The notes under the pieces are model-generated. The model was not told where the DNA came from. It saw only the letters and a program-made list of their open reading frames with translations, and did not search any database. Both the position numbers and the translations under genes were made by a program. Shown piece by piece: positions 40,348-58,510 of a stretch of 64,000 nt of DNA. Numbering within the stretch: the stretch's first letter is position 1; each line of letters starts with the position of its first letter. The stretch is from the NCBI RefSeq assembly GCF_900177665.1, contig NZ_FXAW01000001.1:682001-746000 (forward strand), given 5' to 3'. This stretch comes from Marivirga sericea. Its GTDB lineage: Bacteria; Bacteroidota; Bacteroidia; Cytophagales; Cyclobacteriaceae.

Positions 40348-40707
40348 ATGGAACCGATGACTAAAACCCTCCTAGAAACAGCTGATGAGCTATTAGCTAG
40401 GGCCAATAATGAGTTATGCAAGCCTGAAGAAGACGTAGTACACTACAGCGTTTGTCAGAATGCATATGACGCTATCGTAAATTATTTGGGAAGTTTCCTT
40501 TTAGATAATGATGTTGAGTTTGAAAAAACTTCAAATGTTGAGGATCTGCTGTCAAACTGTAGGTCAATTGACAAAAGATTCAATGAGCTAAACCTTGCAC
40601 CTCTTTATAATCCTACAAAGAGTGAAGACACTTGGATGAGCCTAAATACTGCCAACAGCTTTACGGCAATGGCTGAAAATACACGCAAAATGGTTCGCGA
40701 AGAATAA
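40348..40707 (+). CDS. Small helical protein, possibly HEPN-like
   Basis: A 119-residue, all-helical-looking cytoplasmic protein. The pattern ELLARANNELCK ... VHYSVCQNAYDAIVNYLGSF resembles the core helices of HEPN domains, but the RNase motif Rx4-6H is not seen, so a nuclease role is not supported. Two Cys (in NELCK and SVCQN) are present. It lies 22 bp upstream of nifJ and is the first gene of the unit. It may be a regulator or assembly partner of the oxidoreductase; this is inferred from position alone. Confidence 0.65.
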   Translation: MEPMTKTLLETADELLARANNELCKPEEDVVHYSVCQNAYDAIVNYLGSFLLDNDVEFEKTSNVEDLLSNCRSIDKRFNELNLAPLYNPTKSEDTWMSLNTANSFTAMAENTRKMVREE

Positions 40708-40729: not shown

Positions 40730-43700
40730 ATGAGCAAAAGTATCAAACCCAAATATCCCGGAATATCTGCAGCTATGGATGGAAATACTGCTGCTATCAT
40801 GTGTGAAAGAGAATCTTCAGATGCTGCAGGGGCATATCCCATTACGCCATCAACCCAGATGGGAGAGTATTGGGCAGAAGAAGCTGCTAAGGGACACCTC
40901 AATATTTCTAACAAGCCTCTAATATTCATTGAGCCTGAAGGCGAACATGCAGCCGCAGCCGTTACAGCTGGGCTATCAATGACCGGCCAACGGGCTGCAA
41001 ATTTCTCGTCTGGGCAAGGTATAGCTTATATGCACGAGTCTTTGTATGCTGCAGTGGGTAAAAGGCTAACCTATGTGTTAAATATCGGTACGCGAGCCAT
41101 GACAAAATCAACCCTCAATGTGCATGCCGGACACGATGATTATCATGCTGTAGATGACACCGGATTTTTCCAGCTCTTTGCAAAAAATGCACAACATGTA
41201 GCAGATTTAAATGTAATTGCCCACCGGGTGGCCGAGTTGGCACTTACACCTGGAATTATAGCCCAAGATGGATTTTTGACCACCCACTTAATAGAAAGCC
41301 TTTTGATCCCTGAACGGGAGCTAATAAATGAGTTTTTGGGTAGACCGGATGATCTAATTGATACACCTACACCTGCTCAAAAGATAATCTTTGGAGATCA
41401 GCGCAGGCGCATTCCTGAGCTGTGGGATGTAGACAATCCTGTGATGGCTGGAATTGTGCAAAATCAGGATTCTTATATGCAAAGTGTAGCTGCACAACGG
41501 CCTTTCTTTTTTGATCATATTAAAGACTTGACGGACCTTGCTTTTAAGGAATATGGACAACTAACTGGTCGCAATTACAAACGGGTTATGTCCTATAGAG
41601 CTGAAGATGCTGATTACCTTATATTAGGTCAAGGCAGTGTTATCCCAAGCGCTGAAGCAGTAGTGGATTATCTTAGAACTACTCGAAAGCTCAAAGTAGG
41701 GGTAGTGGATTTAGTGATGTTTCGTCCATTCCCAGCTGACCATTTATCAAAAATTCTAAAAGGTAAAAAAGGAGTAGTGGTTTTGGAAAGACTGGATCAA
41801 CCATTAGCAGAAGACTTGCCCATTGCCCGTGAACTTCGAGCCGTGATGACAAAATGCCTCGAAAATGGACTTTCAAAAACCGATAAGTCTTATCCTGAAA
41901 TCGAATCCTATCAGCCAAAAGATGTACCTAGAATCTATTCTGGTTCATTTGGAATGGGTAGCCGTGATTTGCAGGCCGAAGGCATCATTGGGGCTATTGA
42001 AAATATGCTTCCCGATGGCAAACATAAAAAGTTATTCTATTTGTCTATTGATTTTATTAGGGACAATCCCTTCACACCTAAGCAAAGAGCTCATCAAGAA
42101 ACCATAGAAGCTGCCTACCCGAAGGTTAAAGAATTGGCAGTGCATGGTTCTGAGAGTCCGAATCTTATGCCCAAAGGAGCTACTACCGTTCGCTTCCACT
42201 CTGTTGGTGGATGGGGTGCTATTACCACTGGTAAAAACCTGGCGATGACCCTTTATGATCTGCTGGGATATGACATAAAAGCAAATCCTAAATATGGTTC
42301 AGAGAAGAAAGGCCAACCCACCACTTATTACTTAGCAGCAGCTCCTGAACCTATTCGCATGAACTGTGAATTCTACTTTGTTGATGTGGTATTGTCACCT
42401 GATCCTAACGTATTTAAACATACCAATGCATTGGCAGGCTTGAAAGAGGGAGGATGTTTCATCATTCAAAGCGATAAAGCGAATCAGGAGGAAGTTTGGG
42501 CTACTATACCAAAGCAGTATCAAAAATTAATTGTGAAGAATAATATCCGGGTCTACTACATTGATGGTTTTAAAATCGCCCGAGAGGAAGCTTCAGATCC
42601 TGAGCTTCAGTTGCGCATGCAGGGAATTGCCTTCCAAGGTGCCTTCTTTGCAGCCTCTCCATTGATGAAAACGGCTGGACTAAATGAAAAGGAATTATTG
42701 CAAGCCATTGAAGATCAACTTCAATCCAAATTTGGTGGTAAAGGCCAAAGGGTTGTGGATGATAATATGCGTGTAGTAAAACGTGGTTTTACAGAGATTA
42801 ATGAAGTTACGATTAAAGAAGTTCAAACAGCTTCTAATGGCCACGCCAATGGAACAGTAGGGATACCGATTCCACAAATGTTGAAGGAGATGCCAAAAAG
42901 TGAATCTAACTTAAGTGACATCCATCGCTTTTGGGAGCAGACAGGTAACTTCTATGCCCAAGGAATAGGAAATGATAATATTACTGATCCCTTTATTGGC
43001 TTGAGCGTAATGCCGGCAGTTTCCTCAGTATTTCGTGATATGACTGGTATTCGTTTCGAGCATCCGGAGTGGATAGCCAATAATTGCACCGCATGTGGTA
43101 AATGTTATACAGTTTGCCCTGATACCGCTATACCTGGATTAGTTAGTGAACTAAAAGATGTGCTTGATACAGTGGTGAAGCGGGTGAAAAAGAACAATGA
43201 AGGTGTAAAGCATTTGCAGAAAGCTGTCCGTACAATGGAAGGTAAAGTAAGGACACAATTTAATTCATCAGGCAATGGTGCAACGGTCAATAATTATATT
43301 CAAGAAGCTATTGACCAGATGATTGAAGAGAATAAAGATCAGACTGATATGGTACAAGAGCTGGGCTGGTTTAGAGAAGAGCTAGGCGATTTTCAATTTG
43401 CACTTACCAGACCATATTATGATCTACATGAGAAGAAATCACCCAATAGCGGAGGTCTATTTAGCATTACGATTAACCCCAACACTTGCAAGGGCTGCAA
43501 CGAATGTATTCAGGTCTGCGAAGATGACGCTTTAAGACCTATTATCCAGACCGATGGCACCGTTGCTAAACTGAGAAAAGACTGGGATTTATGGACTGAT
43601 CTGCCAACAACGCCAGAGAAGTACAATCGCATTGATGATCTGGAAGAGAAAATTGGGCCATTGGAAACCTTGCTTTTAAACAAAGAAGCCTACATGAATT

Positions 43701-45688
43701 TCGCAAGTGGCGATGGAGCCTGCTTAGGATGTTCTGAAAAATCTGTAGTGCATTTATTTACAGCGACATTAGAGTCTCTGATGCAGCCCCGCATTAAAAA
43801 GCACATCGCTTATTTAGATGATCTCATTAAACAGATGGAACAACACATCCAGGCTCGTTTAATAGAAAATGTCAATATAAATGATACTGATGCAATAGAA
43901 AGAATTCTTAAAGATACACATGATTCAGATTTAACCATGTCTGGCATTGCCGCCAAGTTGGAAGCTGAACGTGGAAGCAAACCAATTGACCAAGATTGGT
44001 TGAAGGAAACAACACATACACTTTCCCAATTAAAGCGACTGAAATGGAAGTATACTGATGGGACCACAGGTAAGGGCAGGTCTTCAATGGGCATGACGAA
44101 TGCCACTGGATGCACATCCGTTTGGGGCAGTACTTATCCTTACAATCCTTATCCTTTCCCTTGGGCTAATCACCTATTTCAAGATTCAACCTCTATGGCA
44201 ATGGGTATTTTCGAAGGGCATATGGCTAAAATGGCGGAAGGCTTTACCACTATCCGTAAAGCAGAACTGGAATTAAAAGGAAAATACCGTCCTGAAGAAG
44301 ATAAAGACTTCTTTACCTATTTCAACTGGCATCAATTTACAGATGAGGAGTGGCTCTTATGCCCACCGGTGGTAGCTTTAGGAGGCGATGGGGCTATGTA
44401 TGACATAGGTTTTCAAAATCTATCCCGTATGATGGCATCTGGCAAGCCTATCAAAGTAATTGTGGTCGATACTCAAGTGTATTCTAATACAGGTGGACAA
44501 GCTTGTACTTCAGGCTTTATCGGACAGATTTCTGATATGGCACAATACGGACAGGTATGGAAAGGAAAAGCTGAGCCAAGAAAAGAGATTGGCTTAATCG
44601 CAATGGCACATCGAAATACATATGTCATGCAAGCTACTCTGGCCAATACCAGCCATATGATAGAAGGTTTTATTGACGGTTTAACTACACGAAGACCAGC
44701 ATTATTTAACTTATACACTACTTGCCAACCAGAACATGGTGTAGCAGATGATTTAGGGGTACATCAAGCAAAATTAGCGGTAGAGTCAAGAGCTTATCCA
44801 ATATTTAAGTACAATCCTGATCTGGGGGTAAAAGTACAGCAGGCTTTAGATCTTACAGGAAACCCTGCAATGGATCAAGATTGGCCAACCTATGAGTTGA
44901 AATACGAGGAAAATGGCATCCAAAAAACAATGGAGGTTCCTATGACCTTTGCCGATTTTGCCATAACTGAGGGACGTTTTAGAAAACATTTCAGGAATGT
45001 ACCACGCAACTCTTGGAACGACAATATGATCTTGCTGACAGACTTCTTAGCGCTAAATGAAAGCGAAAGAGAGGATAAGTTCCCATTTATTTGGGCGGTT
45101 AACAGAACAGGCGAGTTGAGTAGAGTATTGGTGGCTAAACCAATAGTAGAATCATGTGAAGAACGCAGGGATTTCTGGATTCTGCTCCGCGACCTTTCTA
45201 GCACCAAGCAGGAAAGCGGTTCAGATGGCGATCTAGAAAGCAGAATTAGAGCAGAGGTGGTCGGTAAGATTACTCAAAAGCTCATGCAGCTTGCTGGAGG
45301 AGATGGTGTTACAATGCCTGCTGCAGATCAGCTATTGAAGAAAACGGCTGCACAGCCTACCAAGACTGAAAAGAAAGAGAATGTGGCAGTTGCTGATAGT
45401 CCGCAGCCGAAAGCTGAGCCTAGTGCAACAAGTGAAGCCACATCAGCTCCTTGGCTAGAAAGTGATGAGTGCACTTCTTGTGATGAGTGCATCAACATCA
45501 ATTCTAAGATATTTGCTTATAACGATGACAAGCAGGCTTATATCAAAGATCCTAAGGGAGGACCATACCAAGATTTGGTGACTGCAGCTGAAAAATGCAC
45601 CGCACAAGTGATTCATCCTGGATTACCAGCCGATCCAAATGCTAAGGATATGGAAAAATGGATAAAAAGAGGAGAGAAATTTAATTAA
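40730..45688 (+). CDS. nifJ: Giant pyruvate:ferredoxin (flavodoxin) oxidoreductase
   Basis: NifJ decarboxylates pyruvate to acetyl-CoA and reduces ferredoxin. Visible domains: pyrimidine-binding (YPITPSTQMGE), gamma domain (about 485-690, GGWGAITTGKNLA), [4Fe-4S] cysteines from 786 (CTACGKC...CP) and from 920 (CKGCNEC...CE), TPP-domain cluster CLGC at 998 and 1001, and the TPP motif with GDG at 1219-1221 followed by YSNTGGQ. At 1652 residues it is about 450 longer than standard NifJ. The extra parts are a 120-residue helical insert between the two ferredoxin clusters, an insert after CLGC (about 1010-1110), and a C-terminal Ala/Pro/Thr linker plus a domain with Cys1581, 1584, 1587 and 1623, probably another iron-sulfur site. 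The rnf operon begins 6 bp downstream. Confidence 0.94.
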   Translation: MSKSIKPKYPGISAAMDGNTAAIMCERESSDAAGAYPITPSTQMGEYWAEEAAKGHLNISNKPLIFIEPEGEHAAAAVTAGLSMTGQRAANFSSGQGIAYMHESLYAAVGKRLTYVLNIGTRAMTKSTLNVHAGHDDYHAVDDTGFFQLFAKNAQHVADLNVIAHRVAELALTPGIIAQDGFLTTHLIESLLIPERELINEFLGRPDDLIDTPTPAQKIIFGDQRRRIPELWDVDNPVMAGIVQNQDSYMQSVAAQRPFFFDHIKDLTDLAFKEYGQLTGRNYKRVMSYRAEDADYLILGQGSVIPSAEAVVDYLRTTRKLKVGVVDLVMFRPFPADHLSKILKGKKGVVVLERLDQPLAEDLPIARELRAVMTKCLENGLSKTDKSYPEIESYQPKDVPRIYSGSFGMGSRDLQAEGIIGAIENMLPDGKHKKLFYLSIDFIRDNPFTPKQRAHQETIEAAYPKVKELAVHGSESPNLMPKGATTVRFHSVGGWGAITTGKNLAMTLYDLLGYDIKANPKYGSEKKGQPTTYYLAAAPEPIRMNCEFYFVDVVLSPDPNVFKHTNALAGLKEGGCFIIQSDKANQEEVWATIPKQYQKLIVKNNIRVYYIDGFKIAREEASDPELQLRMQGIAFQGAFFAASPLMKTAGLNEKELLQAIEDQLQSKFGGKGQRVVDDNMRVVKRGFTEINEVTIKEVQTASNGHANGTVGIPIPQMLKEMPKSESNLSDIHRFWEQTGNFYAQGIGNDNITDPFIGLSVMPAVSSVFRDMTGIRFEHPEWIANNCTACGKCYTVCPDTAIPGLVSELKDVLDTVVKRVKKNNEGVKHLQKAVRTMEGKVRTQFNSSGNGATVNNYIQEAIDQMIEENKDQTDMVQELGWFREELGDFQFALTRPYYDLHEKKSPNSGGLFSITINPNTCKGCNECIQVCEDDALRPIIQTDGTVAKLRKDWDLWTDLPTTPEKYNRIDDLEEKIGPLETLLLNKEAYMNFASGDGACLGCSEKSVVHLFTATLESLMQPRIKKHIAYLDDLIKQMEQHIQARLIENVNINDTDAIERILKDTHDSDLTMSGIAAKLEAERGSKPIDQDWLKETTHTLSQLKRLKWKYTDGTTGKGRSSMGMTNATGCTSVWGSTYPYNPYPFPWANHLFQDSTSMAMGIFEGHMAKMAEGFTTIRKAELELKGKYRPEEDKDFFTYFNWHQFTDEEWLLCPPVVALGGDGAMYDIGFQNLSRMMASGKPIKVIVVDTQVYSNTGGQACTSGFIGQISDMAQYGQVWKGKAEPRKEIGLIAMAHRNTYVMQATLANTSHMIEGFIDGLTTRRPALFNLYTTCQPEHGVADDLGVHQAKLAVESRAYPIFKYNPDLGVKVQQALDLTGNPAMDQDWPTYELKYEENGIQKTMEVPMTFADFAITEGRFRKHFRNVPRNSWNDNMILLTDFLALNESEREDKFPFIWAVNRTGELSRVLVAKPIVESCEERRDFWILLRDLSSTKQESGSDGDLESRIRAEVVGKITQKLMQLAGGDGVTMPAADQLLKKTAAQPTKTEKKENVAVADSPQPKAEPSATSEATSAPWLESDECTSCDECININSKIFAYNDDKQAYIKDPKGGPYQDLVTAAEKCTAQVIHPGLPADPNAKDMEKWIKRGEKFN

Positions 45689-45694
45689 TCCCTT

Positions 45695-47023
45695 ATGAAA
45701 ACAGCTAAACAGACTTTCAAGCACGGAATACATCCTCCTGAAAATAAGGAGGAAACGAATGGGTTACCTATTCGACAGTTTTCCTTTGCGCCTTTGATTA
45801 TTCTGCCTTTGGCTCAGCATATAGGAGCTCCATCTAAATTGGTGATCAGAGAAGGACAGGAGGTCGTTAGAGGACAGATCTTGGCAGAATCAGATGGATA
45901 TCTATCTGTTCCGTTACATGCCCCCGTGAGCGGATTGGTGAAGAAAATTGCTTATGTTCCGACTATCTCTGGCAAGATGACCACAGGAATATATCTTGAA
46001 CCATTTCCTTCTTCCACTCAGGAGACATTAGAGGGCGAGGCAATTGACATTGACTCAGCATCACCAGAAGAAATACTAATAGGTATCCAGCAGGCTGGAA
46101 TTGTAGGCCTGGGAGGGGCGGCATTTCCGACCCATGCTAAATTGAAAATTCCTGATGGCAAACATTGCGATACTTTGATTATTAATGGCATTGAATGTGA
46201 ACCTTATCTGACCACTGATCATCGGGTAATGCTTGAGCAATCAGATGATATATTCTTAGGAATCAAATACTTAATGAAAGCTACCGGTGCAAAACGCACC
46301 ATTATTGGTATTGAAGCAAACAAACAGGATGCAGCGGATTTGCTACGGGAACGACTACCGAAAAATGAAGCCATTTCAGTAGAGGTAGTGCCTGTAAAGT
46401 ATCCTCAAGGCGCAGAGAAAATGCTAATTACAGCGCTCTTAGGAAAAGAAGTGCCTTCAAGAGGATTGCCAATTGATGTGAATGCGGTGGTCGTAAATGT
46501 AGCCACTACTGCTGAAATTGGACGACTATTGCCTCATGGTAGAGGAATTCAAGAACGAGTGATCACCATTACAGGACCAGGGGTCAAGAAAAAAGGAAAC
46601 TATTTGATTCCCATTGGAACACCACTTCGATATGTATTGGAGCAGGTCGGAGTGGACGAATCTGTTAGTGAGGTCTATATGGGCGGACCCATGATGGGAG
46701 TTGCTGTGGCTAATCTAGATATTTCAATTGTAAAGGGAACTTCCGGCATAGTAGTCTTTAACAAAGAGCAAATTGAGCAAGCACCTCAAGTTTACCCGTG
46801 TATCAAATGTGGCGCCTGTGTAGATGCATGCCCACTTTCATTAAATCCTTCGAAGTTAGGTATTCTTGCAAAATTTGAATCCTACGAAAAAATGGCTGAG
46901 GAATATCATTTGATGGATTGCTTTGAATGTGGTTCCTGCTCTTATGTATGTCCATCCCACATTCCATTAGTGCAATACTTCCGACTATCAAAATCTATTG
47001 TACGAAAACGAAAAGTAGCCTGA
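45695..47023 (+). CDS. rnfC: Electron transport complex subunit RnfC
   Basis: A 442-residue Rnf subunit carrying FMN/NADH-binding and two [4Fe-4S] clusters; it is the NAD-side module of the ion-pumping ferredoxin:NAD+ oxidoreductase. Motifs: GLGGAAFPTHAKL and ECEPYLTTDHR (NuoF-like NADH/FMN region), then CIKCGACVDACP (about residue 369) and CFECGSCSYVCP (about 408). The C terminus is short, without the long Ala/Lys repeats of gammaproteobacterial RnfC. It begins 6 bp after nifJ and overlaps rnfD by one base, so ferredoxin producer and consumer are made together. Confidence 0.95.
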   Translation: MKTAKQTFKHGIHPPENKEETNGLPIRQFSFAPLIILPLAQHIGAPSKLVIREGQEVVRGQILAESDGYLSVPLHAPVSGLVKKIAYVPTISGKMTTGIYLEPFPSSTQETLEGEAIDIDSASPEEILIGIQQAGIVGLGGAAFPTHAKLKIPDGKHCDTLIINGIECEPYLTTDHRVMLEQSDDIFLGIKYLMKATGAKRTIIGIEANKQDAADLLRERLPKNEAISVEVVPVKYPQGAEKMLITALLGKEVPSRGLPIDVNAVVVNVATTAEIGRLLPHGRGIQERVITITGPGVKKKGNYLIPIGTPLRYVLEQVGVDESVSEVYMGGPMMGVAVANLDISIVKGTSGIVVFNKEQIEQAPQVYPCIKCGACVDACPLSLNPSKLGILAKFESYEKMAEEYHLMDCFECGSCSYVCPSHIPLVQYFRLSKSIVRKRKVA

Positions 47024-48036
47024 TGAAAAAGCAAACACTCCATATCAGTACATCGCCTCACCTAGCACAAGGTACTAGTGTAGAGGTGATTATGCGAAAT
47101 GTTGTTATTGCATTGATGCCTGCTGCTTTGTTTTCGATCTACGCTTTCGGATGGAATGCTGCTTTAGTTCTGATTACGGCAGTTGTTTCGTGTCTGCTTA
47201 CTGAGCACATTTTATGCCGTCTGGCTAATAAAAGGAGTACTGTTTCTGACTGGTCTGCCATTATCACCGGACTGCTTTTGGGCTTAACATTACCACCTAT
47301 TTTCCCGCTTTGGATGACCTTTTTGGGTGGTGTCTTTGCCATAGGTATGGGTAAGTTCCTTTTTGGAGGTTTAGGATACAATGTATTTAACCCTGCATTA
47401 GTAGGAAGGGCAGTGTTGCAAGGGGCGTTTCCGGTTGCGATTACGACTTGGTACGCTAGCTTTTCTGCTGAACGTTTTACCACACTTCATTCTGCAGTCT
47501 TAGCAGTCCCTTTTATGGAACCTGTTATTGATGGAACTTCAGGAGCTACACCACTTTCAGCATTCAAGTTTGATGGAATCACTTCTGAAGCAAGCGATTT
47601 AGCATTAGGTTTAGTGAGCGGATCAACAGGAGAAACATCTTCTGTTTTTATCCTTCTGGGAGGATTGTATTTGGTATGGCGCAATTTCATGAACTGGAGG
47701 ATACCTGTAGCCATACTCGCTACTGTATTCGTATTCAGTGGCATCCTTTATTGGATTGATCCCATAGAATATCCCTCTCCATTATTTATGCTTTTTTCTG
47801 GTGGCTTAATGTTGGGAGCGGTATTTATGGCTACCGATATGGTTGCTTCCCCTATAACGAGCTGGGGAGTAATAATTTATGGAATTATCATTGGAGCTTT
47901 AGTTGTGATTATACGGCTATGGGGAGGTTTACCGGAAGGCGTGATGTACGCTATTTTATTGGGTAATGCCATCTCACCTCATATAGATAGATTAGTTCGA
48001 TATAGAGTTTACGGTACTTCATTAAAAACCTCATGA
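47023..48036 (+). CDS. rnfD: Electron transport complex subunit RnfD
   Basis: A 337-residue integral membrane protein with about nine helices and a covalently bound FMN; it forms part of the ion path. The flavinylation motif is DGTSGATPLS with the acceptor Thr176. Start at 47023 is within the rnfC stop (TGATG), which gives an N terminus (MKKQTLHISTSPHL) like the family; a longer frame from 46927 lies inside rnfC and is rejected. It overlaps rnfG by 4 bp (ATGA). An ApbE-type flavin transferase would be needed and is not in this window. Confidence 0.95.
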   Translation: MKKQTLHISTSPHLAQGTSVEVIMRNVVIALMPAALFSIYAFGWNAALVLITAVVSCLLTEHILCRLANKRSTVSDWSAIITGLLLGLTLPPIFPLWMTFLGGVFAIGMGKFLFGGLGYNVFNPALVGRAVLQGAFPVAITTWYASFSAERFTTLHSAVLAVPFMEPVIDGTSGATPLSAFKFDGITSEASDLALGLVSGSTGETSSVFILLGGLYLVWRNFMNWRIPVAILATVFVFSGILYWIDPIEYPSPLFMLFSGGLMLGAVFMATDMVASPITSWGVIIYGIIIGALVVIIRLWGGLPEGVMYAILLGNAISPHIDRLVRYRVYGTSLKTS

Positions 48037-48704
48037 ACAAGCAAGAGACCATAGCGCCCAACAGTTTCAAAATGATCAGAGCTATGGCTGGAATCGGTAT
48101 TTTATGCGGTCTGCTGATCGTATTTACCTATGAAGGCACAAAACCTCGTATCGAAACTTTGAGAGCAGAAGCCTTAAAAGAAGCTATTTTCAAAGTTATT
48201 CCGGGAAGTACTCAAATGCAACCCTATGTTTATCAAGACAATACATTCAAACCAGCGAATAAGTCTGATGAAGATGTCATTTACGCTGGCTATGACGATA
48301 GCGGTGTTTTCAAAGGACTAGCCATCGTTGCAGCGGGACAGGGATATGCAGACATTATACGAATCATATATGGGTATAGCATTGATCAACAGGAGGTTAT
48401 AGGGTTTTATGTATTAGAAAGTAAGGAGACGCCTGGCCTGGGTGATAAGATCGAAAAAGATCCTGATTTCCTCGACAACTTCACTGATCTCGATGTCTCC
48501 TTAAACGAGGATAAAGATGCCCTTAAGAATAAAGTGACCACCGTGAAAAGTGGCTCTAAAGTAAATGAATATGAAATTGATGGAATTACAGGGGCTACCA
48601 TTTCCTCTCGAGCTATAGAAGATATCATAGCAAGCAGTGCAGAAAAGTGGATGCCAATTATTCATAAGAATAGGAGCATTTTTAAAAATATCGATAATGA
48701 GTAA
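48033..48704 (+). CDS. rnfG: Electron transport complex subunit RnfG
   Basis: A 223-residue membrane-anchored periplasmic subunit with covalent FMN. One N-terminal helix (about 13-32), then the FMN-binding domain with GLGDKIEKDPDF and the flavinylation motif DGITGATISS (acceptor Thr189). It overlaps rnfD by 4 bp and rnfE by 8 bp. Confidence 0.95.
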   Translation: MNKQETIAPNSFKMIRAMAGIGILCGLLIVFTYEGTKPRIETLRAEALKEAIFKVIPGSTQMQPYVYQDNTFKPANKSDEDVIYAGYDDSGVFKGLAIVAAGQGYADIIRIIYGYSIDQQEVIGFYVLESKETPGLGDKIEKDPDFLDNFTDLDVSLNEDKDALKNKVTTVKSGSKVNEYEIDGITGATISSRAIEDIIASSAEKWMPIIHKNRSIFKNIDNE

Positions 48705-49338
48705 TAATCAAAACCATAACGAAAGCTTAAAAACTGTCCCCACTTCCACTGATGAGTTCATTAAAGGCCTGTGGAGGGAAAATCCGGTTTTTGTACAAGT
48801 ATTGGGAATGTGCCCGGTTTTAGCAGTTTCCAATACAGCAGAAAATGCGCTCGCCATGGGAGTAGCCACGGCATTTGTATTGCTGATGTCCAATATTCTG
48901 GTATCCTTGCTCCGGAATTTCATCCCTAAGGAAGTACGAATCGCTTCCTACATTCTTATCATCGCCACATTTGTCACCATTACAGATTATGTCATTCAAG
49001 CGATTAGCGTGGATTTGCATAAAAGCTTGGGAGCATTTATCTCACTAATTGTGGTGAACTGTCTGATATTAAGCAGGGCAGAAGCCTTTGCTTCAAAAAA
49101 CACCGTAGGAAAGTCCATCATGGATGCACTGGGAATGGGTATTGGATTTATTATAGCACTGTTTAGCCTTGGAGCGGTACGGGAGATACTGGGAAACGGG
49201 GCGTTTTTTGGATTTAGCTTGTTTCCTGATGGTTTTCAGGAGTGGGTAATTATGATCCTTCCGGCTGGAGGTTTTTTTACCCTGGCCGCTTGGTTATTGA
49301 TTTTCAATTTAATTAAACAAAAAAGAGCTCAATCATGA
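48697..49338 (+). CDS. rnfE: Electron transport complex subunit RnfE
   Basis: A 213-residue membrane protein with six helices that, with RnfA, holds an intramembrane iron centre. Family motifs are NPVFVQVLGMCPVLAVSNTA (with the conserved Cys) and VVNCLILSRAEAFASKN (second Cys). ATG 48697 overlaps the rnfG end by 8 bp and gives the expected length; an upstream frame from 48637 is inside rnfG. RnfA follows with a 4-bp overlap. Confidence 0.95.
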   Translation: MSNNQNHNESLKTVPTSTDEFIKGLWRENPVFVQVLGMCPVLAVSNTAENALAMGVATAFVLLMSNILVSLLRNFIPKEVRIASYILIIATFVTITDYVIQAISVDLHKSLGAFISLIVVNCLILSRAEAFASKNTVGKSIMDALGMGIGFIIALFSLGAVREILGNGAFFGFSLFPDGFQEWVIMILPAGGFFTLAAWLLIFNLIKQKRAQS

Positions 49339-49919
49339 ATCAGGAATCATATAGTCAGATATTCATCAGTGCCTGCTTAGTGAACAACTTCGTGTTAGCT
49401 TACTTCCTGGGCATCTGCCCATTCCTTGGTGTTTCAGGAAAAATTGAAACCTCCAGTAAAATGGGGGCGGCTGTCACATTTGTGATGTTAATCAGTTCGA
49501 TCTGTGCCTATGGAATTCATGAATTATTGGTGGCGATCAATGCTCCATTTCTACAATTGATCAGCTATATCGTGGTGATTGCTTCCACAGTTCAGTTGGT
49601 GGAAATGTTTGTTAAGAAAATGAGCCCTGCACTTTTCAAGGCATTGGGTATTTTCTTACCCTTGATCACCACCAATTGTGCAATTCTGGCGGTTGCCTTG
49701 TTCCAAACGAACAAAGGATATGATTTTTTTCAAAGTATAGTCTACGCCTTGGGTGCCGGGGCAGGTTTTACATTGGCTTTACTTTTAATCTCAGGACTTA
49801 GAGAGCAGCTTGAATTAGCTGAAGTACCCACTGCAATTAAAGGGACAGTTTTGACTTTGATAGTAGCCGGCATTTTGTCCTTGGCTTTTATGGGATTTTC
49901 AGGTTTAGGAAGTAATTGA
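49335..49919 (+). CDS. rnfA: Electron transport complex subunit RnfA
   Basis: A 194-residue, six-helix membrane subunit, the inverted-topology partner of RnfE. The Cys motifs VLAYFLGICPFLGVSGK and LPLITTNCAILAVAL are intact, consistent with ligands for the [2Fe-2S] or Fe centre between RnfA and RnfE. It ends 9 bp before the small NqrM-like gene. Confidence 0.95.
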   Translation: MNQESYSQIFISACLVNNFVLAYFLGICPFLGVSGKIETSSKMGAAVTFVMLISSICAYGIHELLVAINAPFLQLISYIVVIASTVQLVEMFVKKMSPALFKALGIFLPLITTNCAILAVALFQTNKGYDFFQSIVYALGAGAGFTLALLLISGLREQLELAEVPTAIKGTVLTLIVAGILSLAFMGFSGLGSN

Positions 49920-50132: not shown

Positions 50133-50990
50133 ATGGCACATTTATCAGATTACGACACTAGAAAGCAATATTTCGCAATTGTTAAAAAGACGCGAAGGCT
50201 AAGTCCGGAAGATAGCGAAGAAGTACGAGAATTAGTGCTTGAAGTGAAAGATCCAGAGTTTGGTTGTGAAATCGATCAAAGCTTTGGTGTTTTGGTGAAA
50301 TCTTATGACGACTTTGGGAATACAGATCATCTGCGCCTCTATAGCGTTGCAGACCTTCCAAAAAGGACTAAAAACCATACTACGATAACTATGTTGGTGA
50401 AGCGCTGCTCTTATGTAGATGCTTTCAGTGGTGAGCTTTATGATGGAATTGTCTCCAACTATTTATGCGATAGGAAAGCGGGAGATAAAATCACGATCAC
50501 CGGACCTTATGAACTGCCTTTTAAAATACCGGAAGACAGAAGTGCCAATCTAATTCTAATAGGAATGGGAACGGGCATTGCCCCATTTAGAGCCTTCATA
50601 AAGCATATTTATAATAATATTGAAGATTGGACTGGCAGAATTCTTCTCTTTTACGGGGCAAAAACAGGCCTAGAGCTATTGTATCAAAATGAAAAAGATG
50701 ATGATCTCACAAATTACTATAGCGAAGATACATTCAAGGCCATTCACGCCTATAGTCCTCGGCCACTTTGGAACGATACGGTTGTCCTTGACCAATCAAT
50801 AGAAGAGCGTGCCGAAGAGATAGTTGATATGTTATCAGTTCTGAATACCTATATCTATGTTGCTGGGCATGCAAAAGTTAAAGAAGGCCTTGATAAAGCA
50901 TTTTCGGAAATTATGGGGTCAGAGGAAAAATGGCAAGCCCGAAAAGCAGAGCTTGTTGCAGGGAAAAAGTGGGTTGAATTAATTTATTAA
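50133..50990 (+). CDS. Ferredoxin-NADP+ reductase-type flavoprotein within the rnf operon
   Basis: A 285-residue plant-type FNR. The FAD motif RLYSVA (about residue 69) and the pyridine-nucleotide motif GMGTGIAPFRAF (about 149-160) are clear, and the C-terminal end WVELIY resembles FNRs in ending with an aromatic residue, which stacks on FAD. It would move electrons between ferredoxin and NADP(H). Its place between rnfA and rnfB is unusual; rnf operons normally contain only Rnf subunits. It may supply a second electron route beside Rnf or make NADPH from NifJ/Kor ferredoxin. Gaps to its neighbours are 12 and 10 bp. Confidence 0.88.
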   Translation: MAHLSDYDTRKQYFAIVKKTRRLSPEDSEEVRELVLEVKDPEFGCEIDQSFGVLVKSYDDFGNTDHLRLYSVADLPKRTKNHTTITMLVKRCSYVDAFSGELYDGIVSNYLCDRKAGDKITITGPYELPFKIPEDRSANLILIGMGTGIAPFRAFIKHIYNNIEDWTGRILLFYGAKTGLELLYQNEKDDDLTNYYSEDTFKAIHAYSPRPLWNDTVVLDQSIEERAEEIVDMLSVLNTYIYVAGHAKVKEGLDKAFSEIMGSEEKWQARKAELVAGKKWVELIY

Positions 50991-51000
50991 ATCATATTAC

Positions 51001-51867
51001 ATGACTATCATCATTGCTATACTTGCATTAGGGGGATTGACATTAGTCTTGTCAATCATGTTGGTAATTGCCAACAAGAAACTCTATGTCTACGAAGACC
51101 CACGCATTGATGTAGTAGAAGATATGTTGCCGCATGCGAACTGTGGTGCTTGTGGATTTCCTGGCTGTCGACCTTTTGCTGAAGCCTTAGTTTCTGGTGA
51201 GGTCTTACCCGGAAAATGTACGGTTAGCTCAGACGAGGGAAGAGCCGAGATTGGAGCTTATCTTGGAGTATCAGTTGGAGCTGAAGAAAAACAAGTAGCT
51301 CGTCTTGCCTGTGCAGGCGGGACAAATGTGGCCAGAAACAAAGCGGAATATGAAGGCTTGCAAAATTGCCAAGCTGCCGCCTTAGTATCAGGAGGTGGAA
51401 AAGGATGTTTCTGGGGCTGTTTGGGCTTTGGCGACTGCATGAATGTTTGTGATTTTGATGCTATTCATATGGATGAACATGGCCTGCCCGTGGTGGATGT
51501 AGACAAATGCACGGCATGCGGAGATTGTGTGGAAGTCTGTCCAAAAGACTTATTTTCAATAGAGCCGGTGAGCCACCAGCTATGGGTGGCTTGTAAAAAC
51601 CTCGAAAAAGGGGATGAAGTGCTGGAGGAATGCCAGGTAGCTTGTACTGCATGTGGACGCTGTGCCATGGATGCTCCCGGAGACCTGATTACGATGGAAT
51701 ATAACCTTCCTGTGGTTAATTATTCTATTGCAGAACAAACCCCATTACCTATACAAAGATGCCCAACGGGGGCTATTGTCTGGCTAGATAAGAAAGCAGG
51801 GGCTATCAAAGGCAAAGACAGTAAGAAGATCGTGAGAAAAGGGGAGCGAAATATGGGCTATTCATAA
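51001..51867 (+). CDS. rnfB: Electron transport complex subunit RnfB
   Basis: A 288-residue iron-sulfur subunit that accepts electrons from ferredoxin. An N-terminal membrane helix (about 2-24) is followed by the RnfB cluster CGACGFPGC, then GCFWGCLGFGDCMNVC, CTACGDCVEVCP and CTACGRCAM, together enough for three or four [4Fe-4S] clusters. It is last in the rnf operon, after the FNR gene, whereas rnfB is typically next to rnfA or rnfC. No terminator is seen behind it; a 164-bp gap with a Crp/Fnr-type box leads to the kor genes. Confidence 0.95.
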   Translation: MTIIIAILALGGLTLVLSIMLVIANKKLYVYEDPRIDVVEDMLPHANCGACGFPGCRPFAEALVSGEVLPGKCTVSSDEGRAEIGAYLGVSVGAEEKQVARLACAGGTNVARNKAEYEGLQNCQAAALVSGGGKGCFWGCLGFGDCMNVCDFDAIHMDEHGLPVVDVDKCTACGDCVEVCPKDLFSIEPVSHQLWVACKNLEKGDEVLEECQVACTACGRCAMDAPGDLITMEYNLPVVNYSIAEQTPLPIQRCPTGAIVWLDKKAGAIKGKDSKKIVRKGERNMGYS

Positions 51868-51980: not shown

Positions 51981-52031
51981 GGGAAAAGTAGCGTAAAATT
52001 ATCTTAATTGATTAATGATAAAGTAGAAATC

Positions 52032-53924
52032 ATGAGCAATAATTCTGAAACCATAAAGTCTGAGCCAGTCAAAATTAAAAGGGAGCAAATTAGAGAGGCT
52101 GTCGTTGAAATAGTCAGTGATTCAGGGGAAGGAGCACAAAAATGTGGTCAAAGCCTGGGGACGATCTCGGCAAAAATGGGGAATGGCGTATGGACGGTAG
52201 AAATTATCCCTGCAGAAATACGCCCACCAGCTAGGTCAAAAGCAGGTGCTTCTGGGATAAGGGTAAGAATGGGCAGCAAGAAAGTCACCAATATGGGAGA
52301 TCATGCCGATATGGTAGTGGCTTTAAATGAGCAAGTTTTGTATGGTAGAATAGATCAAAATGCATATAAACCTGGCACTTATCTACTCATTGAAAATAAA
52401 TGGGCCACCGATACAGAAGAATCAAATGCAGCCTATACGGAGTCAATTCAAAAGTTCAAGGCGCTTGGCTATATCATCCATGAAATCCCAATGGAAAAAG
52501 AATGTCTAAAACACGTAAGCGATCCTCGAAAGGGCAAGAATATGTGGGTGCTTGGCTTGTTATGCAATATTTATGACAGAGATCTTAATATTGCAGCTGC
52601 GCAGGTCAAAGCTATATTCAGTAAAAAGAGTGATGACATTATTCAAAGCAATATAGACTTATTGCATGCCGGATATGCATATGCAAACGATAACCTCCCT
52701 ATGCATTTTACCATAGCAAGTAAAGTAAGTAAAGAAGATTTTGTCGTGATGAATGGAAATGAGGCGGTTAGTTTAGGAGTAATGGCTGCAGGAATTGAAG
52801 TATGTTCGATGTATCCGATTACACCTGCCACTTCAGCAAGCCATGCTATGGCCGAGAAAATGGAATCAGCAGGAGGCCTCATTCATCAAGCTGAAGATGA
52901 AATAGCAGCAATAGGATTCGCAATTGGAGCTTCATACGCAGGTCAAACAGCTGTCACTATCACATCAGGTCCAGGGATAGCGCTAAAGACCGAATTTATA
53001 GGACTCGCAGTTATGGCCGAGGTTCCACTGGTGATTGTGGATGTGCAGCGGGGAGGCCCCTCAACGGGATTGCCTACCAAGGTAGAACAGGGCGATCTTT
53101 TGGCAGTATTATACGGGGCAGCAGGTGATGCACCTAAAATTGTATTGGCTCCATCCACCATTGAAGAGTGCTTTCATTATATCATTTTAGCCAGAAAATT
53201 AGCAGAGTCATTCAGGACTCCTGTCTTTGTGTTGACCGATGCCAATCTAGCAACTGGTGTGCAACCCTTTCCCAGACCTAAGATTAAATCAGCTTGGTTT
53301 CCAGATCCAATTGATCAAAGTAAATGGGAAGAAGGAGTGAAGGCCTACGATTGGGATCCAAAAACCGGATTGAGCAAACGTCCGATCCCGGGTCAAAAAG
53401 GAGGCATGTACACCCTTACAGGGCTTGCACACGATGAAGAGAGTCATGTGGCTTATGACCCTTCTATCAACCAACGTGCCGCTGAAAGCAGAAGCCGAAA
53501 GTTGGCCGCCTTGCATAAAACGCTCAAGGAACCAAAGATACTGGGTGATAAATCAGGTGACTTATTGCTAGTGGGATGGGGTTCAACCAGAGGTGCAATT
53601 GAGGAAGCAGTGGAAAGGGCACGCGAGAGGGGGGCAAAAGTTAGTAGCCTCCATCTTCACTTTTTAAGTCCCATGGAACCAGGTCTGAAATCTATATTCA
53701 AAAATTTCAAAAAGGTAATGACGGTGGAAATTAACTATAGCGATACCATTGGCAATTCCTTGATAACAGAAGAGAACAGGCGTTATGCGCAATTAGCCTG
53801 GTACCTGCGGGCACAAACGCTAACAGACATAGACTGCTTTAGCAATGTCTATGGTCAGCCCTTGAGCCCGATCCAAATATTGGAAATGCTTGAGAAGAAA
53901 CTTGATTTAACTTTAACAGAATAA
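52032..53924 (+). CDS. korA: 2-oxoacid:ferredoxin oxidoreductase, fused gamma-alpha subunit
   Basis: A 630-residue subunit of a 2-oxoacid:acceptor oxidoreductase, probably acting on 2-oxoglutarate or related acids and reducing ferredoxin. Residues about 20-195 are the gamma domain (GEGAQKCGQSLGTISAKMG), about 240-440 the pyrimidine-binding alpha domain (CSMYPITPATSASHAMAE, VQRGGPSTGLPTK), then the C-terminal transketolase-like domain. No ferredoxin domain is fused. ATG 52032 is preferred over a TTG at 52008, which adds eight unrelated residues. The beta gene follows after 3 bp. The assignment to Kor rather than another 2-oxoacid specificity is by general likeness. Confidence 0.88.
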   Translation: MSNNSETIKSEPVKIKREQIREAVVEIVSDSGEGAQKCGQSLGTISAKMGNGVWTVEIIPAEIRPPARSKAGASGIRVRMGSKKVTNMGDHADMVVALNEQVLYGRIDQNAYKPGTYLLIENKWATDTEESNAAYTESIQKFKALGYIIHEIPMEKECLKHVSDPRKGKNMWVLGLLCNIYDRDLNIAAAQVKAIFSKKSDDIIQSNIDLLHAGYAYANDNLPMHFTIASKVSKEDFVVMNGNEAVSLGVMAAGIEVCSMYPITPATSASHAMAEKMESAGGLIHQAEDEIAAIGFAIGASYAGQTAVTITSGPGIALKTEFIGLAVMAEVPLVIVDVQRGGPSTGLPTKVEQGDLLAVLYGAAGDAPKIVLAPSTIEECFHYIILARKLAESFRTPVFVLTDANLATGVQPFPRPKIKSAWFPDPIDQSKWEEGVKAYDWDPKTGLSKRPIPGQKGGMYTLTGLAHDEESHVAYDPSINQRAAESRSRKLAALHKTLKEPKILGDKSGDLLLVGWGSTRGAIEEAVERARERGAKVSSLHLHFLSPMEPGLKSIFKNFKKVMTVEINYSDTIGNSLITEENRRYAQLAWYLRAQTLTDIDCFSNVYGQPLSPIQILEMLEKKLDLTLTE

Positions 53925-53927
53925 GAC

Positions 53928-54890
53928 ATGATTAGCTTACAGCCGGATTTTTGCGATATAGAAATACCAGAAAAAGAGCATTATAGCATCGAGGACTATT
54001 CAAGCAGCAAGGCGCGATGGTGTTCTGGTTGCGGTGCGCACACTATTTTACATTCCGTGCAAAAGCTTTGTACTGATGAACAATTACCACCCGAAAAAAC
54101 GGTTTTTGTATCTGGAATAGGCTGTAGTAGCCGGTTTCCACATTATATGAAGACTTACGGCTTTCACGGACTTCATGGCAGAGCTTTTCCTGTAGCGAGC
54201 GGAATAAAGTTTCGGAGACCTGACTTGCATGTGTTCGTGATCACAGGAGACGGGGATTGTTGTTCTATTGGTGCAGGGCATTGGGTACATGCGATCAGGT
54301 ATAATATGAAAATGGTGGTATTGCTTTTTGATAATTCTATTTATGGACTGACTAAAAAGCAGACTTCTCCTACCAGTCCGCTGGGAACCCATACAAATAC
54401 TCACCCGACAGGCTCGGTTCTTCCGCCTATAAACCCTATACAATCTACCTTAGGCTTAGCAAATGTCTCTTTTGTGGCGCAAACCGTTGATTGGAAACCC
54501 GCTCATTTGAACGCTACCCTTAAGAAGGCCTACGACCATCCTGGTTTAGCTTTTGTTCGAATAGTGCAAAGATGTCCGATTTGGATGCGAGAGAACTATG
54601 AGCCTACTGTTAAAGATCCTGATGCTATAACCGTTTTGAACCATGAGAATGGAATTGTATTGGAAGAGAATGCCTTGAAGAAATTTAGACATATTCAAGA
54701 GCATGACCCATCAAATCTTGTGAAAGCAAGAGAAGTAGCCGAATTGGTTAAGACCACTACACCTATAGGGCTTTTTTACCAGAATAAAGAAGCTATTAGA
54801 TATGATGAATATGGTGCCCATAATCTGGGAGTTCCGGTTGAAGACCGAATAAACGCTATTAACTCACTTATGGATAAATATGCTATTTAA
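53928..54890 (+). CDS. korB: 2-oxoacid:ferredoxin oxidoreductase beta subunit
   Basis: A 320-residue TPP-binding subunit. The four expected [4Fe-4S] ligands are present: two in RWCSGCGAH, one in GIGCSSRFPHY and one in QRCPIWM. The TPP motif starts ITGDGDCCSIG and ends near LLFDNSIYGLTKKQTSPTSP. It lies 3 bp after the alpha gene and 11 bp before the NifJ-like degenerate protein, so the three are an operon. Compared with standard KorB (about 340 residues) nothing is missing. Confidence 0.92.
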   Translation: MISLQPDFCDIEIPEKEHYSIEDYSSSKARWCSGCGAHTILHSVQKLCTDEQLPPEKTVFVSGIGCSSRFPHYMKTYGFHGLHGRAFPVASGIKFRRPDLHVFVITGDGDCCSIGAGHWVHAIRYNMKMVVLLFDNSIYGLTKKQTSPTSPLGTHTNTHPTGSVLPPINPIQSTLGLANVSFVAQTVDWKPAHLNATLKKAYDHPGLAFVRIVQRCPIWMRENYEPTVKDPDAITVLNHENGIVLEENALKKFRHIQEHDPSNLVKAREVAELVKTTTPIGLFYQNKEAIRYDEYGAHNLGVPVEDRINAINSLMDKYAI

Positions 54891-54901
54891 CAGAATGTAT
54901 T

Positions 54902-56698
54902 ATGGAAACTCCTAATAAGCTATCGCCAAATACCTCTTCCTTTTATTGGAAGAAAAGTGATCCTGCTCCTGAATTGGAAATGCAATCTTTCTGGAAAAAG
55001 TTAAGGCATTTTTATAGAACAGGAAAGCATTCTGACTCGCATCAAGAGTCCTTTTCTTCGGCCTTGTTGCGTTTTTTGGATGATAAGCAATCAGCATATC
55101 CTTTTACACTGGAGGGAAATTCCAAAAAAGCAGTGATTGAGCTGGAGGAAAAAACGCCTTTCTACTTTCTTGACTTTATGCTTTCAGAACTCCATCAAGA
55201 ACATCGAAAAGCATTTAAAGGGCAATTAGCTTCACTTATTACAGGTTTAAATAAATTATTGCAAATTGAAGATAAAGACGCTGAAGTTGAGACACTTAAA
55301 GGAGATTATGATTTTGCGAATGAGTTGATTGCTTTTGATCAAATGGCGGACATGATCCCAAAATCTAAGGGAGAAGAGTTGTCCCAAGCGCGGTCATCTC
55401 GTCTGATCTCAGTAATTGGCACATTGAAAGAAGGACTGGAACTATTTGGTAAGCATGAAGGAATAGTGCTGCTTGAAAAGGAAGTTAAAAAGAGCCTGGA
55501 GAAAGCTCCGCTTTTTCAGAATACACTGCTAATTGAGACCAAAGATGACGTTTTTGAGCATTGTCAAAAGCTATTTCAGAAAGAAGTGAAATCTTTTACT
55601 TCCTTGATGAAAGCCTATCGAATAGCAAAACTGGAAATTGAGGGGGAATACCAAGAGGATATCCATAAAGACTATTTTGAAGACTTCAATTGGTATCGAT
55701 TATTGGCTGAAGAGTTAAAGCTTTTTTATCCGATAGTAGTAGTTGTTAATCAACCCTATGTGTTTGATCATCTAAGCTCTCTTTCAAGTCTAATGGCATC
55801 AAACAAACCCATAAAGGTGGTAGTATTAAACCACGAACATATTTCTACTCCCAACCAAGAGCTAATGTGGGAAGATGCCTCTCATCAATTCAGACAAGAA
55901 GTTGCTGCATTGGCGATGGCGCATCGCAACGTGTATACCTTCCAAAGTAGTATGGCTGATCCTTCGAACGTACACCAAGGATTAACGAATTGTTTCAAGT
56001 CCACAGCTCCAGGATTATGTCACCTATCTGTACCAATGCAGGATGTATCAGCTGAAATGAGTCAATACCTCGTGGCAAAAGCAGCAAATGCGAGCCGTTA
56101 CTTTCCTGCTATCCAATATGACCCTGCAAAAGGCAGTAAATGGGGAGCAAGGTTTGATTTGACAGATAATATTAAAGCAGAAGAGAGCTGGCCGAACTTT
56201 GTTTTAAATGCAAATACTTCTGAAACCGAAAAAATCGAAATTACTGCAGCCTTTACCTATGCCGACTATAAAGCTTGCTTTTCGCAAAAAGTTAAGGAAC
56301 TGATGATAGTACCTGATGCTTACAACACTGATTATTTAATTCCGCTTAGCGACTATTTGGAATTAGATGAGGCAAAGCTTTATGGTAAAATTCCTTTTAT
56401 TTGGCTCATCGATGAGGAAAACCAATTGCACAGAGCTGCAGTGCCTAATGTTTGGGTGGTTTCTTGTCAGGAGCGATTAGATTTTTGGCTTTTTCTACAA
56501 GAGCTAGGAGGTTTTAATAAAGCCAAGGACAAAGAGGCTATACAGCAAAAAGAGAGAGAAATGACCCTTTTATTAGAAGAACAAAAAGCAAAAATGGATC
56601 AAGCTAATCAGCAAATCAGTGAAACTGCTCAAGAAGAAGCCACTTCGAAAGCTGTTGAGCGACTTGTTAAGGCCTTGCTCAATGATGAAGAATTGTAA
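54902..56698 (+). CDS. Degenerate NifJ C-terminal-half paralogue (predicted pseudoenzyme)
   Basis: A 598-residue protein that aligns with residues from about 725 onward of the giant NifJ in this window. Pairs: FWKKLRHFYRTG with FWEQTGNFYAQG; DYFEDFNWY with DFFTYFNWH; SLMASNKPIKVVVL with RMMASGKPIKVIVV; ALAMAHRNVYTFQSSMAD with AMAHRNTYVMQATLAN; KIPFIWLIDEENQLHRA with KFPFIWAVNRTGELSRV. All cofactor motifs are gone: GGDGAMYD is VNQPYVFD, YSNTGGQ is HISTPNQ, CLGC and both CxxCxxC motifs are absent, and only five scattered Cys remain. The N-terminal 45 residues and the long C-terminal coiled coil (about 545-598) are intact and the frame is open, so it is a maintained gene, probably a structural or regulatory partner of KorAB or NifJ. 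Confidence 0.85.
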   Translation: METPNKLSPNTSSFYWKKSDPAPELEMQSFWKKLRHFYRTGKHSDSHQESFSSALLRFLDDKQSAYPFTLEGNSKKAVIELEEKTPFYFLDFMLSELHQEHRKAFKGQLASLITGLNKLLQIEDKDAEVETLKGDYDFANELIAFDQMADMIPKSKGEELSQARSSRLISVIGTLKEGLELFGKHEGIVLLEKEVKKSLEKAPLFQNTLLIETKDDVFEHCQKLFQKEVKSFTSLMKAYRIAKLEIEGEYQEDIHKDYFEDFNWYRLLAEELKLFYPIVVVVNQPYVFDHLSSLSSLMASNKPIKVVVLNHEHISTPNQELMWEDASHQFRQEVAALAMAHRNVYTFQSSMADPSNVHQGLTNCFKSTAPGLCHLSVPMQDVSAEMSQYLVAKAANASRYFPAIQYDPAKGSKWGARFDLTDNIKAEESWPNFVLNANTSETEKIEITAAFTYADYKACFSQKVKELMIVPDAYNTDYLIPLSDYLELDEAKLYGKIPFIWLIDEENQLHRAAVPNVWVVSCQERLDFWLFLQELGGFNKAKDKEAIQQKEREMTLLLEEQKAKMDQANQQISETAQEEATSKAVERLVKALLNDEEL

Positions 56699-58163: not shown

Positions 58164-58179
58164 CAAAAACATCAAAACC

Positions 58180-58491
58180 ATGGACACATTAACAATTAAC
58201 AACGCAGAAATTAAGGTAAATGAAGAAGGCTATTTCACTGATCCATCTCAATGGAGTGAAGATATAGCCATAGAAATGGCTAAGAAAGAAAACATAGACC
58301 TCACCGATAAACATTTTGAAGTCTTGAATTTCTTGAGAAGCAAGCATGCGGAAGAAGTACCGCTTTCAATTCGAAAGGTAGGGAAGTCTGGAGTGGTGAA
58401 TATCAAAGAGTTTTACGCTCTCTTTCCTGGTGGTCCCTTAAAAATCTCCAGTAAAATAGCGGGGATTCCTAAACCAGTAAGCTGTGTATAA
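58180..58491 (+). CDS. DsrC/TusE-family sulfur-carrier protein
   Basis: A 103-residue member of the TusE/DsrC family, small proteins that carry persulfide sulfur on a flexible C-terminal arm. Family motifs: NEEGYFTDPSQWSEDIA, FLRSKHAEEVPLSIRK, and the C-terminal KIAGIPKPVSCV with the invariant penultimate Cys102. True DsrC proteins have a second Cys about ten residues before; here that place is Ser (ISSKIAG), so the protein is of the one-Cys, TusE-like kind. It lies 16 bp after sqr and 19 bp before the DsrE2 gene, which suggests it receives sulfur from that system. Confidence 0.88.
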   Translation: MDTLTINNAEIKVNEEGYFTDPSQWSEDIAIEMAKKENIDLTDKHFEVLNFLRSKHAEEVPLSIRKVGKSGVVNIKEFYALFPGGPLKISSKIAGIPKPVSCV

Positions 58492-58510
58492 CCTTTTAAA
58501 TTAAGAAATA

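Follow-up and report, generated by a model that had tools for sequence, protein, structure and literature searches.

The 2-oxoacid:ferredoxin oxidoreductases (OFORs) occur in several subunit compositions, and in the four-subunit forms a delta subunit brings a ferredoxin domain. We describe here a protein related to these enzymes, a pseudoenzyme (PSI) encoded in a stretch of 64,000 nucleotides of Marivirga sericea (contig NZ_FXAW01000001.1) that is called the window throughout. It is homologous to domains V and VI of the NifJ PFOR (TIGR02176; PDB 6CIN and 1B0P), whose fold the predicted one matches, but it lacks the TPP motif, the internal FeS motifs and domains I to III of NifJ, and no family model matches it. 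Its domain VI fold is common to the OFOR beta subunits (PorB/KorB, oxalate oxidoreductase beta), which, according to PMC5020499, bind TPP and a [4Fe-4S] cluster; the pseudoenzyme differs in having neither a TPP nor a cluster motif, and a real KorB is encoded next to it. Relatives of the pseudoenzyme resemble the OFOR delta subunits (PorD/KorD, OorD) in that they likewise bring a ferredoxin domain, here to a two-subunit KorAB. The delta subunit, however, is a small two-cluster ferredoxin, whereas in these relatives a single-cluster Fer4_13 domain ends a large dead TPP-enzyme scaffold. The two-subunit OFORs of Sulfolobus tokodaii are described in PMC5020499 as having no intramolecular ferredoxin domain and a single cluster near the pocket that possibly takes an external ferredoxin, instead of which the operon presented below would offer a dedicated protein. 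Passages of four further papers (PMC6315080, PMC11636981, PMC4914600, PMC4478896) concern ordinary KorAB, NifJ and Rnf. No description of such a pseudoenzyme was found in titles and abstract openings of the open-access literature, and the literature searched held no description of an OFOR in which one subunit is a dead version of the enzyme's own catalytic domain.

The operon in the window

The pseudoenzyme gene ends a series of genes coding for a giant NifJ, an Rnf complex and KorAB (Table 1). Its 598 codons are free of stops and begin 11 bp past the korB stop, the distance given in an earlier note made from the sequence alone. NifJ, KorA and KorB of the window each match their own family models in Pfam or NCBIfam, and KorB has its TPP motif and cysteine motifs; the pseudoenzyme matched no model in Pfam, NCBIfam or PHROGs. 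A promoter and terminator scan did no better than on shuffled sequence. Genes for a pyridine-nucleotide-disulphide oxidoreductase, a DsrC-like and a DsrE-like protein follow the operon at 56871-59038; genomes G003, G005, G006 and G009 have other sequence in that place.

Table 1. Coordinates of the genes discussed, in the window unless a locus is named
Feature	Positions	Strand	Product and evidence
HEPN-domain ORF	40348..40707	+	PF05168 E 9.5e-5; upstream of nifJ
giant NifJ	40730..45688	+	1652 aa; catalytic relative of the pseudoenzyme, with motifs for TPP, FeS and the C-terminal ferredoxin
rnfC, rnfD, rnfG, rnfE, rnfA	45695..49919	+	TIGR01945, 01946, 01947 (just under cut-off), 01948, 01943
FAD/NAD(P) oxidoreductase, FNR-like (our label)	50133..50990	+	Pfam NAD_binding_1; between rnfA and rnfB
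rnfB	51001..51867	+	TIGR01944 E 6e-26, above cut-off
korA	52008..53924	+	2-oxoacid:acceptor oxidoreductase alpha; TIGR03710 E 4e-163, above cut-off; start codon uncertain
korB	53928..54890	+	2-oxoacid:acceptor oxidoreductase beta; TIGR02177 E 9e-67 (below curated cut-off), Pfam TPP_enzyme_C
pseudoenzyme (PSI)	54902..56698	+	598 aa; homologous to NifJ domains V-VI; TPP and FeS motifs absent
psiNifJ2	L021 15927-19703; L081 11805-15503; L155 10401-14201; L165 10521-14639; others

Ancestry and predicted fold

BLASTP aligns residues 227-591 of the pseudoenzyme with the NifJ of the window (E 3e-45, 28% identity), and profiles extend the match over residues 78-598. Profile-profile comparison of 14 members of the pseudoenzyme family with 15 NifJ C-terminal halves gives a probability of 100 and an E value of 7e-86 over 592 columns, which take in the C-terminal ferredoxin where it is present. 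At the level of these profiles a chance likeness is excluded, and the earlier note's view that NifJ ancestry covers most of the protein is borne out by the profile search it had proposed. The likeness is to the C-terminal half of NifJ only, domains I, II and III being absent.

Structure prediction, proposed in the same note, returned a PFOR/OFOR-like fold. The first AlphaFold2 model, whose input alignment included NifJ rows, has a mean pLDDT of 85 and a pTM of 0.79; Foldseek retrieves with it 23 PDB chains at E <=0.001, all of them PFOR or OFOR, with a best PFOR hit at E 1.2e-9. A control model computed from the pseudoenzyme family alone, without NifJ rows (pLDDT 82, pTM 0.76), agrees with the first and retrieves 24 chains, again all PFOR or OFOR (best E 5.4e-9). 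The fold of domain VI is recognized in these predicted models. Query-normalised TM-scores are low (<=0.35) because the TPP-domain part alone is common to the known structures.

Gene order and distribution

Loci carrying the pseudoenzyme gene were sorted by gene order into two types, the labels being our own. Type I, with 15 genomes or records counting the window, reads nifJ-rnfCDGEA-fnr-rnfB-korA-korB-pseudoenzyme, as far as the contigs show. Its first part, nifJ-rnfCDGEA-fnr-rnfB, is found without kor genes in relatives G045, G018, G010, G035, G177 and G405. Type II (16 genomes or records, three of them pieced together from two contigs each) reads korA-korB-long pseudoenzyme-rnfB-psiNifJ2. 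NCBIfam models back the rnf naming in the window as well as for two genes of type II. The FNR-like flavoprotein gene holds the same position in type I loci and was seen in none of the type II loci read. The HEPN ORF stands directly 5' of the giant nifJ in 11 of the 11 gene-bearing type I loci that have this place in view.

PsiNifJ2, about 1250 amino acids long and TPP-less, still has domain II, the two ferredoxin-like FeS motifs and a domain I that is degenerate. This second and larger dead NifJ of Rnf operons is arguably as interesting as the pseudoenzyme. Thirteen psiNifJ2 loci extend far enough to show what comes next, and in 12 of them, including G119 whose upstream side is not in view, this is rnfC. 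In the remaining one, G023, psiNifJ2 is preceded by a 467-bp spacer and followed by a different ORF. The pseudoenzyme gene of two loci stands outside both types, with neither psiNifJ2 nor rnfB next to it. G1122 carries an Nfn-like pair (PRK06222, gltA-like), then korA-korB-pseudoenzyme, then a second, distant korAB, and neither a giant NifJ nor psiNifJ2 was detected in it; L075, cut upstream so that this side is out of view, has no rnfB or psiNifJ2 after the pseudoenzyme.

The idea that type II genomes are devoid of catalytic NifJ is contradicted by the giant NifJ (75-78%) found in G015, G174, G119 and G971. G023 and G086 have a divergent, unlinked giant NifJ (38-39%), while G083, G674, G1098 and G145 have unlinked PFOR-like frames, and in G085, G685 and G738 the pseudoenzyme and psiNifJ2 are the only matches. 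Divergent giant NifJs, 36-39% identical, are encoded at L161 4006-8649 and on G086:C50 and G023:C216, and the match to them stops short of the C-terminal ferredoxin; L161 has a HEPN-like gene downstream. Elsewhere in the phylum NifJ is split into adjacent alpha-like and beta-like genes (L167 10012-13550, L168 8961-12524).

Sampling within the family gave the pseudoenzyme in 17 of 295 genomes; the order yielded 6 in 390, the class 6 in 395, including one fragment, and the phylum 4 in 345. These samples overlap, their positives are rows counted from tables, and the best two to three candidates were scored per genome, which makes absence weaker here than where all candidates were scored. The total is 33 genomes or records in one phylum, named loci included, plus the fragment in G971. 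All 17 named loci are from Bacteroidota, among them Marivirga arenosa (L064) and Fulvivirga lutimaris (L065). Within the genus of the window, 5 of 10 genomes have the gene intact behind korB, and the other five gave no match, whether searched with KorB or with the pseudoenzyme, a query that picks up giant NifJ as well. The earlier note would have taken a broken gene in close relatives as refutation; no such copy was seen among the relatives carrying the gene.

Association with KorAB

In all 31 loci with upstream sequence in view, korB lies directly 5' of the pseudoenzyme gene; the other 4 of the 35 locus rows start at contig ends, and negative korB gaps reflect over-extended ORF starts. The fragment in G971 also adjoins korB. 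Among 59 relatives, a KorB of at least 58% identity is present in seven, exactly the seven that have the pseudoenzyme, and none of the 17 with a distant KorB only (33-49%) has it. Among 31 chosen genomes, KorB of at least 81% identity occurs in 7 of 7 with the pseudoenzyme and in 0 of 24 with a giant NifJ but no pseudoenzyme. All candidates were scored in both sets, and the genome of the window is counted in both. The TPP-side and cysteine motifs are retained in 28-31 of 31 KorB proteins and in 28-29 of 30 KorA proteins. The co-occurrence with korAB for which the earlier note had asked is thus found, in the genomes tested, with one clade of KorB, and the link to KorAB is stronger than the single sequence before that note could show.

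In the pseudoenzyme tree, made by a quick method with a midpoint root and with long branches (among them G1098, G1122, G083 and G015) and unlike composition flagged, the family forms one group with an SH-aLRT of 100. A recent duplication of the neighbouring NifJ is rejected on this ground, and by this tree the pseudoenzyme is an old separate group. The 15 type I members form one group (100) nested among the others. The KorB tree likewise has the type I rows in one nested group (100/99), next to G971, G685/G738 and G674; the group labelled type II in it also held G1122, with its Nfn neighbourhood, and G971, whose downstream side is out of view. G1098 and G1122 are placed differently by the two trees. 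Because type I is nested among the others in both midpoint-rooted trees, a three-gene korA-korB-pseudoenzyme cassette seems to have been added to the NifJ-Rnf operon from a type II operon. The trees suggest that the older operon was korA-korB-pseudoenzyme-rnfB-psiNifJ2-rnfCDGEA, in which NifJ would have been replaced by a second dead version keeping its FeS motifs.

Loss of the cofactor motifs

Motifs were compared in an alignment of 64 proteins: 32 of 35 pseudoenzyme rows, 19 of 24 giant NifJ rows and 13 of 16 psiNifJ2 rows, with fragments, near-copies and truncated rows omitted. GDG and NTGGQ, the TPP motifs, occur in 19/19 giant NifJs, 0/32 pseudoenzymes and 0/13 psiNifJ2s, and the proximal-cluster motif GDGACxGC has the same distribution (19/19, 0/32 and 0/13). 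The two internal CxxCxxCxxxC motifs are found in 19/19 giant NifJs, 0/32 pseudoenzymes and 13/13 psiNifJ2s. Scanned singly, no pseudoenzyme matched a TPP-enzyme model at E 0.01; the protein is without a TPP_enzyme_C domain and without cluster-binding cysteines of the KorB type.

The GGDG of the NifJ TPP site (1218-1221) is aligned to V282-N283-Q284-P285 of the pseudoenzyme, GDG therefore corresponding to N283-Q284-P285, and SNTGGQ is aligned to S-T-P-N-Q-E. Both motifs are replaced, as the earlier note had stated; its residue mapping was one off in each case, which leaves the point unchanged. The three internal cysteine motifs are gone, also as claimed, but a fourth, the C-terminal ferredoxin, had been overlooked. 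Homologues retaining the motifs would have spoken against that reading: none of the 32 retains the TPP motifs, but most do keep this one cysteine motif. Judged by the motif alignment and the two predicted models, the proposal that the fold was retained and catalysis lost is supported, and the pseudoenzyme is an enzyme fold without its catalytic residues.

Fate of the C-terminal ferredoxin

The C-terminal single-cluster ferredoxin, CTSCDEC in the window NifJ, is absent from the window pseudoenzyme. In the alignment it is present in 17/19 giant NifJs, 22/32 pseudoenzymes and 0/13 psiNifJ2s, and Fer4_13 matches 22 of the 32 pseudoenzymes in individual scans. Since 22 members keep this domain, redox centres have not vanished from the family altogether. 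For two of the ten pseudoenzymes lacking it, L153 and L157, the contig ends before the gene does, and the tail absent from L157 was found on L158, ferredoxin included. The ferredoxin is missing in 8 of the 14 type I pseudoenzymes with a complete C-terminus versus 0 of 18 others. By sequence comparison, the lineage of the window has lost it, and our own reading of the tree places losses within type I on three or more separate branches. A supposed free-standing small ferredoxin gene in G738 is really one gene split over two contigs.

The type I NifJ carries its own C-terminal ferredoxin in 14 of 15 genomes; in the exception, G229, the ferredoxin is on the pseudoenzyme and not on NifJ. This distribution fits one ferredoxin shared within one assembly. 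Being a single case, it is not significant, because G229 is the only type I genome without a NifJ ferredoxin, and with 6/14 type I members keeping theirs the pattern is expected by chance about 4 times in 10. A reciprocal loss in G229 alone among 15 type I genomes was accordingly rejected as proof of a NifJ-pseudoenzyme heterodimer.

Selection

The dN/dS of the pseudoenzyme gene is 0.37, 0.16, 0.14 and 0.15 in four pairs of genomes, dS being near saturation in the last. Values for the other operon genes are 0.00-0.23 where computable (dS is not computable for rnfG and korA in G133/G063). In the pair G000/G003 the 0.37 of the pseudoenzyme compares with 0.01-0.23 for its neighbours. The gene is under purifying selection and less constrained than most of its catalytic neighbours, its constraint being weak because it evolves faster than they do. 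Open frames and dN/dS below 1 led us to reject a pseudogene.

Proposed role

We lean, somewhat beyond an even chance, towards the hypothesis that the pseudoenzyme is a maintained, catalytically dead third subunit of KorAB, derived from the C-terminal half of a giant NifJ and linking KorAB to an electron acceptor. The hypothesis builds on the homology, the loss of the TPP and FeS motifs, the purifying selection, the adjacency to and co-occurrence with KorAB and the ferredoxin of the relatives; physical binding, electron transfer and a division of labour with NifJ are what we infer from these. Domains V and VI and the ferredoxin tail would have come from a giant NifJ-type PFOR. KorAB would supply the TPP site and, going by its cysteine motifs, a single FeS site, and the pseudoenzyme may dock on it by surfaces left from domain VI, joining it to the electron acceptor whose genes are close by. 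The pseudoenzyme ferredoxin of most relatives would pass electrons to RnfB/RnfC or to Nfn, with the FeS-bearing psiNifJ2 where present. In the lineage of the window the protein cannot transfer electrons without a partner, since it has no cofactor motif of its own, and the C-terminal ferredoxin of NifJ, or RnfB, may take over the job of the lost one.

Weighing against the hypothesis are the weak constraint on the gene, the conflict between the two trees over G1098 and G1122, and the two loci that have neither psiNifJ2 nor rnfB next to the gene, G1122 and L075, the latter with its upstream side out of view; ferredoxin complementarity with NifJ has G229 as its single case. Operon position alone would also fit a chaperone or a regulator. 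The pseudoenzyme could then be a domain VI decoy that stays outside the working enzyme and assists KorAB or NifJ in FeS/TPP loading or holds back their activity, as the missing cofactor motifs of the window protein and its relaxed sequence constraint would allow. We hold this unlikely: a ferredoxin kept in most of the family is more like a redox subunit, and the 17 genomes with a distant KorB only manage without the pseudoenzyme. Partnership with NifJ itself, which the earlier note had named beside docking on KorAB, is also to be considered, the pseudoenzyme forming a heterodimer with giant NifJ (or psiNifJ2) through domain VI dimer contacts and its place beside korB reflecting co-regulation. 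The OFOR dimer interface is made mainly by domains I, II and VI, as PMC5020499 has it, and 29 of the 40 strongly conserved positions of the pseudoenzyme are common to NifJ; a giant NifJ accompanies the gene in the same genome or contig in the 15 type I loci, psiNifJ2 does so in the 16 of type II, and G229 has the ferredoxin on the pseudoenzyme in place of NifJ. This is nonetheless quite improbable, as the 24 genomes with a giant NifJ in which no pseudoenzyme was found also lack this clade of KorB, G1122 has korAB and the pseudoenzyme with no giant NifJ or psiNifJ2 detected, and the nesting of type I appears in the KorB tree too.

Retention of the fold in a maintained gene might also mean that the old pocket was redirected to another reaction. 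Such a new enzyme is very improbable, and a new catalytic pocket is disfavoured by the variability at the old site: the former active-site columns vary more than average within the family, at an entropy of 2.7-2.9 where the mean is 2.18, and what is conserved is largely what NifJ shares. There is hardly any likelihood left for a decaying nifJ relic. Its faster evolution than the neighbours and the repeated ferredoxin loss read from the tree could be taken for decay, but the family rows read are uninterrupted frames across large divergence, dN/dS stays below 1 in all four pairs, and genomes of the genus either have an intact gene behind korB or give no match for the gene or for KorB.

Beyond the third-subunit hypothesis, we consider as a tentative and rather doubtful extension that dead PFORs serve Bacteroidota as an electron-wiring chassis. 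Pseudoenzyme and psiNifJ2 would together mimic a NifJ dimer that plugs KorAB into RnfB/RnfC, such that 2-oxoacid oxidation could drive the Rnf pump in one complex without free ferredoxin, and a working NifJ would have replaced psiNifJ2 in the lineage of the window.

Significance

If the third-subunit hypothesis is true, the pseudoenzyme would be a new type of subunit for an old enzyme class, giving an OFOR with pseudoenzyme subunits. The pseudoenzyme and psiNifJ2 would be two distinct groups in which a large metalloenzyme was reused as a scaffold. Direct electron hand-over from an OFOR to Rnf or Nfn would then be testable in the isolates Marivirga arenosa and Fulvivirga lutimaris, which both carry the operon.
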